From Alphaproteobacteria bacterium (GTDB lineage Bacteria > Pseudomonadota > Alphaproteobacteria > Sphingomonadales > Sphingomonadaceae): DNA of 64,000 nt. Within the stretch, counting starts at the first letter, position 1, and each line of letters opens with the position of its first letter. Below, piece after piece: positions 18,887-22,293 of this stretch. The stretch spans positions 62,001 to 126,000 of the forward strand of contig VBAC01000002.1 of NCBI GenBank assembly GCA_005883305.1, read 5' to 3'. The notes under the pieces are model-generated. The model was not told the origin of the DNA and made no database searches. It worked only from the letters and a program-made list of their open reading frames with translations. Both the position numbers and the translations under genes were made by a program.

Positions 18887-19762
18887 ATGCGTTTCCATCT
18901 TCTCGGGCTGGCCCTGATGGCCTCGGTCGCAATGCCCGCCATCGCCCAGCGGGCGGAGCCGATCGATCGCCGCGTCGAGCGGCTGGAACAGCAATTGCGG
19001 GCAGTTCAGCGGCGAGTCTTCCCAAGCGGGAACGTCGAGCCGGAAATCGCCCCGGGCTCGGTGCAGGGCTCCGGCTTCGGCGCCTCGGGCGACGCGCTTT
19101 CGAGCCTTAGCGCCCGGGTCGACGCGCTCGAGGCGCAGCTTCGCTCGCTGACCAGCCAAGTGGAGGAGTCCAATTATCGCACGCGCCAGTTCGAGGACCA
19201 GATCGCGCGGCTGAGGACCGACCTGAACGGGCGGATCGAGCGGCTCGAAAGCGCACCGCGCGCCGCCGCCGAGCCGGCGCCGCCGCCGCGGGTGCGAGAG
19301 CAGCCGGCCGCCCCGGCCGAGGCGGAAGCGCCTCCCGCTCCGGCGCCGGCAAGGACCGCCGACGACGCCGAGGAAGCCTATAATGTCGGCTACCGGCTGT
19401 GGAGCGCACATCGCTACGCCGAAGCGGCCGGAGCGCTCGGCGACGCCGCCACCCGCTTCCCCAACAGCCGCTGGGCGAGCTGGGCGCGCAACCTTCAGGG
19501 CCGCTCCTATCTCGACGACAACAAGCCGGCCACGGCGGCGCGAATCCTGCTCGCCAATTACCAGGACAATCCGCGCGGCGAGCGGGCGCCCGACAGCCTC
19601 TATTATCTCGGCCAGGCGCTGACACGGCTCGACCGGCGCGCCGAGGCCTGCCGGGTCTATGACGAGCTGGCCTCGGTCTATCCCGACATGCGCGACACGA
19701 TCCGATCGCGCCTGCCCGAAGCGCGCACCGCCGCGCGCTGCGCTGCGCCGACCAGGAACTGA
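18887..19762 (+). CDS. CpoB/YbgF-like periplasmic TPR protein
   Basis: 291 residues. Signal peptide MRFHLLGLALMASVAMPAIAQ, then a coiled-coil region (VERLEQQLRAVQRRVF and ALEAQLRSLTSQVEESNYRTRQFEDQIARLRTDL) matching the YbgF trimerisation domain, an Ala/Pro-rich linker, and C-terminal tetratricopeptide repeats (EEAYNVGYRLWSAHRYAEAAGALGDAATRFPNSRWASWA, and two more). In E. coli CpoB coordinates Tol-Pal with peptidoglycan synthesis. Unlike the tol-pal locus arrangement, no tol or pal gene is near. In many alphaproteobacteria this gene is directly followed by tilS; here two repeat-protein genes on the other strand lie in between. Confidence 0.85.
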   Translation: MRFHLLGLALMASVAMPAIAQRAEPIDRRVERLEQQLRAVQRRVFPSGNVEPEIAPGSVQGSGFGASGDALSSLSARVDALEAQLRSLTSQVEESNYRTRQFEDQIARLRTDLNGRIERLESAPRAAAEPAPPPRVREQPAAPAEAEAPPAPAPARTADDAEEAYNVGYRLWSAHRYAEAAGALGDAATRFPNSRWASWARNLQGRSYLDDNKPATAARILLANYQDNPRGERAPDSLYYLGQALTRLDRRAEACRVYDELASVYPDMRDTIRSRLPEARTAARCAAPTRN

Positions 19763-19834: not shown

Positions 19835-20311
19835 TTAGCAGTGGCGGCCGCGGCTCGCCGGATCGGCGTAGCGCCCGCTGTCCGAATCGGAACAGGACCG
19901 GCGGCGCACGCAGCGTCCGTTGCCGGCAGGATCCGAATTGCGCCCGGTGTCCGAATCGGTGCAGCCGGTACGGCGGCGGCGGCAGCGGCCGTTGCCCGCC
20001 GGATCCGAGTTGCGGCCGGTATCGGAATCGGTGCAGCCGGTGGTCCGGCGGCCGCCGCCGCAGCTGCGGCCGGCGCCGGCCCGATCGGAATTGGGGCCGC
20101 TGTCGGAATCGCTGCAGCTACCGCGACGCCCGCCGCAGCTGCGGCCGTTGCCGCCGGGATCGGAATTGGGGCCGCTGTCGGAATCGCTGCAGCCCGATTG
20201 GGCCGCCTGCGCCTCGTCGGTGGCGATGACGCCGATCGCCCCCGCGGCGGCGACGCCCCCGGCGACGGTGGCAAGGAAGGAACGGCGGTTCAGTTTGCGT
20301 GTCGGTTTCAT
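19835..20311 (-). CDS. Tat-exported Cys-bracketed Asp/Ser/Gly repeat protein, paralogue 1
   Basis: 158 residues, function unknown. Residues 1-38 are a twin-arginine signal: RKLNRRSFLATVAGGVAAA, then EAQAAQ. The rest is five repeats starting at residues 41, 66, 93, 117 and 140, each about CSDSDSGPNSDPGGNGRSC with basic Arg/Gly spacers. All ten cysteines of the protein sit at the two ends of repeats. The D-x-D-x-G-x-x-x-D pattern recalls calcium-binding loops, but this is inference. The ATG at 20311 begins the Tat signal; an AAGGGG lies 14 bases upstream, and two further in-frame starts exist (20323, 20371). It shares a 45-base identical stretch (20150-20194) with the neighbour at 20626. I know no described function for this family. 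Confidence 0.85.
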   Translation of the reverse strand: MKPTRKLNRRSFLATVAGGVAAAGAIGVIATDEAQAAQSGCSDSDSGPNSDPGGNGRSCGGRRGSCSDSDSGPNSDRAGAGRSCGGGRRTTGCTDSDTGRNSDPAGNGRCRRRRTGCTDSDTGRNSDPAGNGRCVRRRSCSDSDSGRYADPASRGRHC

Positions 20312-20468
20312 CGTGCGATGCATCCCCTTCGCCCAATGTGGAGGCCGCTCGCGCGACCCGAAGACCCCCAAGGGTTACCAGATTTCCCGGGCATGCAAAG
20401 CGAAAATGGTTGCGGGCGCGAAACCGCGCCCGCAATTCGCTCTAACCCAGGTGAGATCGGCGCAATGA

Positions 20469-20480
20469 GATAAGCTTATC
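20469..20480. promoter_or_regulatory. Perfect 12-bp palindrome GATAAGCTTATC
   Basis: A self-complementary, AT-rich site in very GC-rich surroundings, 158 bases upstream of the start of Tat-repeat paralogue 1. It could be a regulator site. Function is not demonstrated. Confidence 0.35.
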
Positions 20481-20499
20481 GACCTTCAGCACGATATTG

Positions 20500-20603
20500 C
20501 TCCCTCTCCCATGGGGAGAGGGCTGGGGTGAGGGGTTCGGACGTCGGCGAACAAACACGAACTCCGTAAACCGAACCTACCCTCCCCCTCAGGGGGAAGG
20601 ATA
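20500..20603. repeat. Inverted-repeat element, family D
   Basis: Left half has CTCTCCC/GGGGAGAG around AT, with GGGCTGGGGTGAGGG after it. The right half is CCCTCCCCCTCAGGGGGAAGG. GTTCGG and CCGAAC pair inside. This type of TCCCTCTCCC element is common between genes in proteobacteria. It lies downstream of Tat-repeat paralogue 2 and is the only element here found between tandem genes. Confidence 0.75.
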
Positions 20604-20625
20604 AAAGGCTGAATGCGGATGCAGT

Positions 20626-21213
20626 TTAACGGCAGCGATGGCCGCGTCCGGCCGGATCGCCATAGGTGCCGCTGTCCGAATCGCTGCAGCGCGGGTTGCC
20701 CCGGCCGTAGCCGGACGCATCGGCGAAGCGGCCGGAATCGCTGTCCGTGACTCCGGTCCGAACGCGGCCGGAGCAGCTGCGGCCTTGCCCGCCCGGATCG
20801 GCATTGGGGCCGCTGTCGGAATCGCTGCAGCGGCGCGTGCCGCGCCCGTTGCCCGGAGGATCGGCATATGGCGCGCGATCGCTGTCGGTGAGGCCGCTGC
20901 GTCCACCGCGGCAGCTGCGGCCGTGGCCGACGCCGTCCGAATTCGGGCCGGTGTCAGAATCGGTGCAGCCGCCGCAGCTGCGGCCGCGGCCGCCGGGATC
21001 GGAATTGGGGCCGCTGTCGGAATCGCTGCAGCCGGCGGTGCTGCCGCAACTGCGCCCGCGCCCGCTGGGATCGGAATTGGGACCGCTGTCGGAGTCGCTG
21101 CACTGGAAGGCCTGCGCCTCTCCGCTGACGGTCAGCAGAGCGCCGCCGATGACGGCTCCGCCGGCGACCTGGGTCAGAAACGAGCGGCGGTTGAGCTTGC
21201 GCGACGCCTTCAT
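20626..21213 (-). CDS. Tat-exported Cys-bracketed Asp/Ser/Gly repeat protein, paralogue 2
   Basis: 195 residues, function unknown. Tat signal at residues 5-37: RKLNRRSFLTQVAGGAVIGGALL, ending GEAQAFQ. Seven repeats start at residues 38, 62, 83, 108, 129, 155 and 176. Repeats 1, 2, 3, 5 and 7 begin and end with Cys; repeats 4 (LTDSDRAPYADPPGNGRG) and 6 (VTDSDSGRFADASGYGRG) lack both. This paired loss argues for one disulfide inside each repeat. GGGGAG is eight bases before the ATG at 21213, which decides the start over 21342. Tandem paralogue of 19835-20311. What it binds is unknown. Confidence 0.87.
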   Translation of the reverse strand: MKASRKLNRRSFLTQVAGGAVIGGALLTVSGEAQAFQCSDSDSGPNSDPSGRGRSCGSTAGCSDSDSGPNSDPGGRGRSCGGCTDSDTGPNSDGVGHGRSCRGGRSGLTDSDRAPYADPPGNGRGTRRCSDSDSGPNADPGGQGRSCSGRVRTGVTDSDSGRFADASGYGRGNPRCSDSDSGTYGDPAGRGHRCR

Positions 21214-21348: not shown

Positions 21349-22293
21349 ATGGCCGATCCCGACGCCGCCGCGACTGCCCGCTTCCGCGCCGATCTCGATC
21401 GCCTCGGCCTCGGCGCGGCGCGGCCTTTCGGCGTGGCGGTATCAGGCGGGCCGGACAGCCTCGCCCTGCTTCTGCTCGCCAACGCCGCCTTTCCCGGGCT
21501 GATCCATGCCGCCACGGTCGATCACGGGCTAAGGGCCGAGAGCGCGGACGAGGCGGAGACCGTCGCCGCCATCTGCGCGCGCATGGGCGTCCCGCACGCG
21601 ATCCTGTCGGCGGGGATGGTCGCGACGTCCAACGTCCAGGCCGCGGCGCGCGCGAGGCGCTACGACCTGCTGGCCTGGTGGGCCGAAGAGAACGGTCTCG
21701 CCTGCATCCTCACCGCCCATCATCTCGACGACCAGGCCGAGACCCTGCTGATGCGGCTGCTTCGCGGCTCCGGCCTCGCCGGGCTGGCCGGCATCCGCGC
21801 CAGGCAAGACCGGCCCGTCCCCGTGCTTCGCCCGTTGCTCGGCTGGCGGCGCGCCGAGCTTGAAGTGATCGTCCTGGCGGCCGGCATCGAGCCGGTCCGC
21901 GATCCGAGCAACGCGGACGACAGGTACGACCGCGCCCGCCTTCGCAAGCGCCTTGCCGAGACCGGCTGGATCGATCCGGCCCCGCTCGCGCGAAGCGCCG
22001 CCGTTCTGGCCGAGGCCGAGGAAGCGCTCGGCTGGGTCGAGCACATGCTTTGGCAGGAGCGCGTCGCCGCCGCCGGCGACGGCTTCAGCCTCGACCCGAT
22101 CGGCCTCCCTGCCGAGCTCAGGCGGCGGCTGGTGCTTGGCGTGCTTGCGGCGATCGGCGGCCCGGCGCCGCGCGGCGACGAGGTCGCGCGGCTGATCGCC
22201 ACGCTCGAGGCCGGCGGCACGGCGACGCTTTCCGGGACGAAATGCGTCGGCGGGGCGCGCTGGCGGTTCGCGCCCGCCCCGCCGCGCCGCTGA
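21349..22293 (+). CDS. tilS: tRNA(Ile)-lysidine synthase TilS
   Basis: Converts cytidine 34 of the minor tRNA-Ile to lysidine using ATP and lysine, which is needed to read AUA. 314 residues. The PP-loop is AVSGGPDSLALLLL near residue 30; ATVDHGLRAESADEAETVAAICARMGVPH and ILTAHHLDDQAETLLMRLLRGSGLAGLAG are the family signatures. The short length, with only a reduced C-terminal domain, is usual in alphaproteobacteria. The start at 21349 lies 135 bases from the divergent Tat-repeat gene; a much longer upstream frame is the shadow of that gene. Confidence 0.95.
   Translation: MADPDAAATARFRADLDRLGLGAARPFGVAVSGGPDSLALLLLANAAFPGLIHAATVDHGLRAESADEAETVAAICARMGVPHAILSAGMVATSNVQAAARARRYDLLAWWAEENGLACILTAHHLDDQAETLLMRLLRGSGLAGLAGIRARQDRPVPVLRPLLGWRRAELEVIVLAAGIEPVRDPSNADDRYDRARLRKRLAETGWIDPAPLARSAAVLAEAEEALGWVEHMLWQERVAAAGDGFSLDPIGLPAELRRRLVLGVLAAIGGPAPRGDEVARLIATLEAGGTATLSGTKCVGGARWRFAPAPPRR

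Follow-up and report, generated by a model that had tools for sequence, protein, structure and literature searches.

Two tandem genes in the window, the whole 64,000 nt stretch of a Sphingomonadaceae genome that we analyzed, encode Tat-exported repeat proteins of an undescribed family, which are probably the dedicated substrates of a JmjC_2 oxygenase and would be exported after modification. The link between the repeat proteins and the oxygenase, observed in both gene neighborhood and genome content, is strong. We infer the repeats' role as substrate, the modified residue, the disulfides, the cellular location and the function.

Two tandem Tat-signal genes lie between cpoB and tilS

The initial annotation had described two tandem genes encoding Tat signals followed by five and seven repeats, and we confirmed both on the minus strand, where all features of the pair are located. 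The upstream gene (20626..21213) encodes repeat protein 2, which is 195 aa long with a Tat signal and seven repeats, and the downstream gene (19835..20311) encodes repeat protein 1, which is 158 aa long with a Tat signal and five Cys-bracketed repeats. The Tat assignment is borne out by TIGR01409, which scores the signal of protein 1 (residues 1-37, KLNRRSFLATV, 20201..20311) at 18.5 bits, above the cut-off of 16.7, and the signal of protein 2 (residues 1-36, KLNRRSFLTQV, 21106..21213) at 16.4 bits, just under the cut-off by 0.3 bits. The signal of protein 1 would be cleaved after AQA, and a TatC gene is present in the window's genome.

The protein 1 array (19838..20191) contains five repeats, each with both cysteines (pairs 41/59, 66/84, 93/110, 117/134 and 140/158), and the protein 2 array (20632..21102) contains seven, five of them with both cysteines (pairs 38/56, 62/80, 83/101, 129/147 and 176/194). 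As had been claimed, the other two repeats of protein 2, at residues 108-125 (LTDSDRAPYADPPGNGRG, 20839..20892) and residues 155-172 (VTDSDSGRFADASGYGRG, 20698..20751), lack both. All 10 cysteines in each protein form pairs that bracket repeats, with a spacing of 17 or 18 residues, and the consensus across both proteins is C-[ST]-D-S-D-[ST]-G-x-x-[SA]-D-P-x-G-x-G-R-x-C. The repeats exceed chance: the tandem array is detected at the DNA level too, and 146 distinct proteins share the same architecture.

On the plus strand, the pair is flanked by genes that we take to be cpoB (ybgF-like, at the end of the tol-pal cluster; 18887..19762) and tilS (21349..22293), names that follow the earlier note and general knowledge and serve as context only. 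The pair does interrupt a cpoB-tilS neighborhood, as had been proposed: cpoB adjoins tilS with no repeat genes between them in three genomes of the window's genus (G186, G053 and G129), and a Sphingomonadaceae bin (L098) has the window's arrangement, with three repeat genes between cpoB and tilS. The window's genome contains two further repeat loci with one gene each, so that four repeat genes were found in it. No promoter was found in a promoter scan of the locus, and a terminator scan produced a single terminator-like site, no more than in shuffles. This sole match falls within a G- and C-rich inverted stretch between both genes (20499-20610), which resembles a dispersed intergenic element.

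The repeat proteins form a widespread family

The repeat proteins are a real, widespread and undescribed family, mainly found in Alphaproteobacteria and in metagenome bins labeled as myxobacteria. To collect them, we used an alignment of three repeats to scan the genomes of the GTDB set, where the best 80 of 122 matches yielded 78 loci that were picked by their repeats alone, without regard to neighbors, and that hold one to five repeat genes each. According to their record titles, most loci come from Maricaulales, Sphingomonadales, Rhodobacterales and other alphaproteobacterial genomes or bins; the remaining loci include some from bins with myxobacterial or deltaproteobacterial titles, and a single Anaerolineae bin contributes two. 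Together with loci from related genomes, the collection includes 146 distinct proteins, the window's two among them.

The initial annotation knew of no described family that matched, suspected an undescribed system and proposed a repeat search across Sphingomonadales. Our wider scan and the clustering of neighboring frames identified the 146 proteins and a JmjC_2 oxygenase as their recurrent neighbor, and both family and partner support the suspicion. The window proteins received no repeat family assignment in Pfam, NCBIfam or PDB sequences; their Pfam and NCBIfam matches are to Tat-type models and, weakly, to low-complexity models, mainly of staphylococcal SD-repeats. PADLOC found no defense family when given protein 2 and the window genome's own oxygenase, and a known repeat or defense family was rejected on the Pfam, NCBIfam and PADLOC searches. 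Protein 2 had no match among 72,556 plasmid records, and neither repeat strings nor titles retrieved literature on the family from the open PMC set.

Across 819 long repeats, the profile reads G-[IVLC]-T-D-S-D-[ST]-G-x-[YN]-A-D-P-[AV]-G-x-G-R-G, in which the near-100% conservation of D, D, G and D is circular because these positions belonged to the search pattern. With [ST]DxD as the sole anchor, a long repeat follows 802 of 920 starts and a short one a further 90, and Arg is present in 851 of these 892. The motif RRx[FLMIV] occurs in 146 of 146 proteins, a count that is partly circular because frame trimming used RR, and 59 of the 146 have a lipobox pattern after the Tat signal. One protein (L126, 3431-4114) combines a Tat signal and five repeats with a PG_binding_1 domain (E 1.1e-18). 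Before the twin arginines, a TL..DI motif is found in 18 proteins, mostly from rhodobacterial and myxobacterial records with some others (examples are L139 8758-9303 and L113 8881-9222), and might be recognized by the oxygenase.

Frames that we take to be RuvC-, RuvA-, RuvB-, YbgC-, TolQ- and TolR-like, from the look of their sequences and general knowledge, are neighbors of the repeat genes at 24 to 30 loci, on the upstream side and mainly in Maricaulales loci within L064-L136. The window genes are positioned at the opposite end of the tol-pal cluster, adjoining cpoB. This neighborhood possibly reflects synteny only, or possibly an envelope link.

Flanking cysteines occur in pairs

A disulfide within each repeat had been proposed, with independently varying cysteines named as the observation that would speak against it, and we counted both ends of the 819 long repeats. 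Both flanking cysteines are present in 87, only one in 3 and neither in 729 (Fisher 3e-114, a value inflated by shared descent); the ends thus co-occur, and the three single-cysteine repeats each have a cysteine in a neighboring repeat. Mature proteins contain 0 cysteines in 46 cases, 2 in 85, 4 in 9, 8 in 4 and 10 in 2, so that after hand curation none of the 146 has an odd count, where the rejections were chosen after the odd rows were known. Because 87 repeats are paired, 3 are single and no count is odd, the data support a disulfide bracketing each cysteine-bearing repeat.

Before curation, a first parity count had 8 odd rows and a second had 7, which were judged on inspection to be counting artifacts. 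Their causes were upstream junk (L078 and L097), repeat cysteines called as lipobox (L096, P0001 and L098), a pre-repeat cysteine called as lipobox (L088) and a wrong RR (L127); in the first count only, lipobox cysteines were counted (L082, L111 and L112) or a cysteine was cut off (L129 and L135). Upstream junk was trimmed from several frames prior to counting, and the cysteine windows were narrowed after an earlier count (23 proteins with 20 paired, 99 none and 4 single). The counts leave out the L120 fragment, the second L090 fragment and, because of an apparent frameshift in the bin, a 503-aa frame in L122 that runs from the repeat protein into the oxygenase.

The two cysteine-free repeats of protein 2 had been interpreted as a loss of cysteine pairs, and this part of the annotation does not hold. 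Cysteine-free repeats are the family norm (729 of 819), the usual residues at the two places are I/V/L (first) and G (last), and a direction of change is therefore unsupported. A repeat that starts with Cys is present in 68 proteins, and in 40 of these the last repeat is the only one of this kind. With both cysteines in 5/5 and 5/7 repeats, the window proteins belong to the cysteine-rich extreme of the collection.

The same observations bear on a different explanation, which follows the cation-binding loop suggested in the initial annotation and in which the repeats are unmodified, disulfide-stapled calcium-binding loops and the oxygenase is linked to them in some other way, for example through oxygen or iron regulation. 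The D-x-D-x-G-x-x-x-D spacing is conserved across the family, in the long and short repeats that follow nearly all [ST]DxD starts, and the cysteines are paired, as such loops would have it. However, neither window protein has a Pfam match to EF-hand, TSP3 or RTX at E<=10 (HMMER filters drop most matches above ~0.1), AlphaFold gives the repeat protein no confident fold (pLDDT 46), and the near-complete co-occurrence with an intact oxygenase (see below) is left unexplained. We hold the calcium-loop account to be unlikely.

A JmjC_2 oxygenase gene accompanies the repeat genes

Clustering the open frames around the repeats identified one gene family in 54 of the 78 loci (from the best 80 of 122 matches), and tblastn added three more, downstream of the repeats in L122 and L123 and divergent in L084, so that an oxygenase gene is located beside the repeats in 57 of the 78. 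Among the 54, 49 have it immediately downstream in the same orientation, with a median gap of 85 nt, and 5, all rhodobacterial, have it divergent. Across the 78 loci, no gene cluster other than the oxygenase and its antisense shadow occurs in more than three of six taxonomic groups, which were assigned from record titles. Two loci were wrongly placed in the myxobacterial group, as the title of L111 reads Anaerolineae and that of L112 Alphaproteobacteria; neither has the enzyme in its locus, and the four myxobacterial enzyme loci therefore stand.

The window's genome has one oxygenase copy, located outside the window (G000 contig C1, about 868269-869489, minus strand; match at 868287-869438, E 6e-97) and unlinked to any of its four repeat genes. 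Next to this copy is a frame that we would call HPPD-like on general knowledge. The genome also has a second JmjC_2 match elsewhere, a weak one.

A precursor-type gene linked to a modifying enzyme in 57 of 78 loci, if not in the window's genome, is also what multi-core RiPP precursors would present, where every repeat is modified by the oxygenase before a protease frees many small peptides. JmjC enzymes do modify RiPP precursors elsewhere (BipG and PbsQ, according to excerpts of the papers cited below), and the Arg- and Gly-rich linkers could be cleaved. Against this, no further gene family recurs across groups beside the pair; there is no classical leader, and the Tat and lipobox signals and the peptidoglycan-binding fusion suggest that the whole protein is retained. 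Release of small peptides is, in our judgment, decidedly improbable.

Two loci contain side features. In L144 (7491-7661), the frame upstream of the likely start of the window genome's own oxygenase extends across a short element, probably a dispersed intergenic repeat, that has further matches in G420 and G142. In L229 (5265-8069, G399), a remote JmjC relative has a radical SAM-like frame and a small YNQ-type repeat protein as neighbors, which resembles another repeat or RiPP-type cluster.

The partner is an NO66/MINA53-type enzyme that follows the repeats across genomes

The partner is a JmjC_2 protein (PF08007, E 6.6e-28) whose solved relatives among PDB sequences are NO66 (E 3.5e-31) and MINA53 and, more weakly, YxbC and YcfD. 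The AlphaFold model of the oxygenase is confident (pLDDT 92.5), and Foldseek places NO66 first (E 1.7e-30, TM 0.75). The metal ligands H153, D155 and H216, as well as K168, the 2-oxoglutarate (2OG) ligand by comparison with an excerpt of PMC6006756, are identical in 54 of 54 neighbors. By domain and metal ligands, the partner is an Fe(II)/2-oxoglutarate oxygenase of the NO66/MINA53 type with intact catalytic residues. In NO66 and MINA53, a Ser hydrogen-bonds near, or positions, the substrate His, according to an excerpt of PMC9994133. The column of this Ser, matched by pairwise alignment, holds Gly in 53 of 53 neighbors reaching it, with a gap in 1 of 54; these alignment counts (54/54 and 53/53) leave out L084, L122 and L123. 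E. coli RoxA also has Gly in this column, and His is consequently not the expected target, as far as the excerpt describes the role of Ser. In an enzyme tree, the window genome's copy is nearest to the copy in L098's genome, but the clade is not firm because only 7 weak rows passed the filters and long branches meet.

We quantified the co-occurrence of repeats and enzyme in samples of genomes, where searches scored the top candidates per genome only and absence means absence at that sensitivity. The order sample (296 genomes) includes 11 genomes with repeats, and all 11 have the enzyme at E <1e-60. Its 285 repeat-free genomes include none with the enzyme below 1e-60 and three with only weaker relatives (1e-28 to 1e-40). 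At a threshold of E<=1e-20, the Fisher value is 1e-17; such values are overstated because the sampled genomes are related by descent. The class sample (385 genomes) shares three repeat genomes with the order sample (G000, G014 and G103) and also has 11 genomes with repeats, 11 of 11 with the enzyme below 1e-60. Among its 374 repeat-free genomes, 19 have the enzyme at 1e-20, of which 18 contain remote relatives (2.7e-24 to 8.8e-21) and one (G632) is below 1e-60. G632, with a strong enzyme match and no repeats detected, is 92% complete in 320 contigs.

The enzyme is also found where it is not adjacent. Out of the 24 loci without the enzyme by clustering, 23 were searched genome-wide (L107 shares its genome with L098). 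They lie in 21 genomes, 20 of which have the enzyme below 1e-60; the exception is a bin, G423, with repeats and no enzyme detected. Three of the 21 (L084, L122 and L123) have the enzyme in the locus, which leaves 17 of 18 with the enzyme elsewhere only. Within the window's genus, G186 has both repeats and enzyme, and G053 and G129 have neither. In the family sample, G186, G142 and G195 have the enzyme. The repeat match in G017 (E 7.5e-4), whose locus has no Tat repeat protein and which has no enzyme, was treated as spurious.

Its closest solved relatives, NO66 and MINA53 and more distantly YcfD, raise the question of whether the enzyme is a ribosomal oxygenase (of the uL16, uL2 or uL15 type) whose linkage to the repeats is a hitch-hiking accident. 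Ribosomes are universal, yet none of the 285 repeat-free genomes in the order sample has the enzyme below 1e-60; the repeat-oxygenase gene order is shared by Parasphingopyxis, Maricaulales, Erythrobacteraceae and myxobacterial bins; and the His-positioning Ser, as the excerpt above describes it, aligns with the Gly that all 53 neighbors share. We give a ribosomal role very little credence.

Proposed mechanism and implications

We propose that the oxygenase modifies the repeats before export, in five steps. The repeat protein would be made with its Tat signal and stay in the cytosol. The oxygenase would hydroxylate the repeats, with the Asp beta-carbon as a first guess and Arg as a second. Tat would then export the whole protein to the periplasm, or to the membrane as a lipoprotein. 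Where present, the paired cysteines at the repeat ends would form disulfides, and the repeats would finally bind cations or play a structural part in the cell envelope.

Asp is our tentative choice of modified residue, at slightly less than even chances, and is favored because a Tat protein beside an oxygenase copy (L230 4840-5232, G755:C15) keeps the Asp-Pro-Gly core in DxDPxDPIGxG repeats that have no Arg. Arg, by analogy to YcfD, would be a doubtful second choice. As the sole universal target, Arg is doubtful given these Arg-free repeats, but G755 has two enzyme copies; its Arg-free protein is a natural variant of use in locating the modified residue. As for the role, a cation-binding or structural envelope polymer is weakly favored by the acidic core, by the existence of lipoprotein forms and by the single fusion to a peptidoglycan-binding domain. 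The linkage could also mean that repeat protein and enzyme act on a third partner. The unlinked enzyme in the window's genome, G632 (no repeats detected) and the bin G423 (no enzyme detected) likewise count against the proposal.

Tat prefers folded cargo. The model of the repeat protein, in which no fold is confident, fits Tat badly, unless modification, ions or disulfides would fold it. An oxygenase partner offers a possible reason for post-translational export by Tat, as the cargo awaits modification in the cytosol.

Taken to its full extent, the proposal is of an NO66/MINA53-like oxygenase that works off the ribosome, hydroxylates its substrate once per repeat, possibly to beta-hydroxyaspartate, and hands it to Tat for assembly into a disulfide-stapled, metal-binding envelope coat in Alphaproteobacteria and apparently myxobacteria; we regard this complete version as possible but somewhat improbable. 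If the proposal is true, bacterial JmjC oxygenases gain an exported, non-ribosomal protein substrate outside antibiotic clusters, the envelope becomes tied to oxygen and 2-oxoglutarate status, and what were hypothetical proteins become a two-gene system open to testing. The repeat peptides are short and ready as assay substrates, and the even cysteine counts illustrate disulfide co-evolution in a clean natural case.

Comparison with known systems

Thrombospondin type 3 (TSP3), EF-hand and dockerin calcium loops have an Asp-rich DxDx spacing, and TSP3 has cysteines. The window repeats differ in their Asp-Pro and GxGR elements, no hydrophobic core and no model match. In HxsABCD and GrrA/GrrM, an exported repeat protein is paired with a dedicated modifying radical SAM enzyme; here, the enzyme is an oxygenase, the repeat is different and the signal is of the Tat type. 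HxsA and L126 both end in a peptidoglycan-binding domain, and L126 matches TIGR03979 (HxsA) below its cut-off over residues 96-222, peptidoglycan-binding end included; the window proteins have no NCBIfam match to HxsA.

NO66 (RIOX1), MINA53 (RIOX2) and YcfD/RoxA resemble the partner in JmjC_2 domain, metal and 2OG ligands, and fold. Their substrates are ribosomal, whereas the partner accompanies exported repeat proteins and has Gly in place of the Ser that, in the excerpt cited above, positions His in NO66 and MINA53. In the RiPP systems, according to excerpts of PMC12707348 and PMC12257519, ornithine in biphenomycin is hydroxylated by BipG, and PbsQ also introduces a hydroxyl. BipG, BpmG and PbsQ are likewise JmjC-type enzymes acting on a ribosomally made peptide, a role that the repeats would share as putative substrates. 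As far as these excerpts describe them, their clusters encode a short precursor and many tailoring enzymes, whereas the system here has long exported repeats and no other recurrent enzyme. No literature joining JmjC and twin-arginine terms was found in the open PMC set. The combination of an exported repeat protein with a JmjC maturase appears to be new, and each half of it has precedents.
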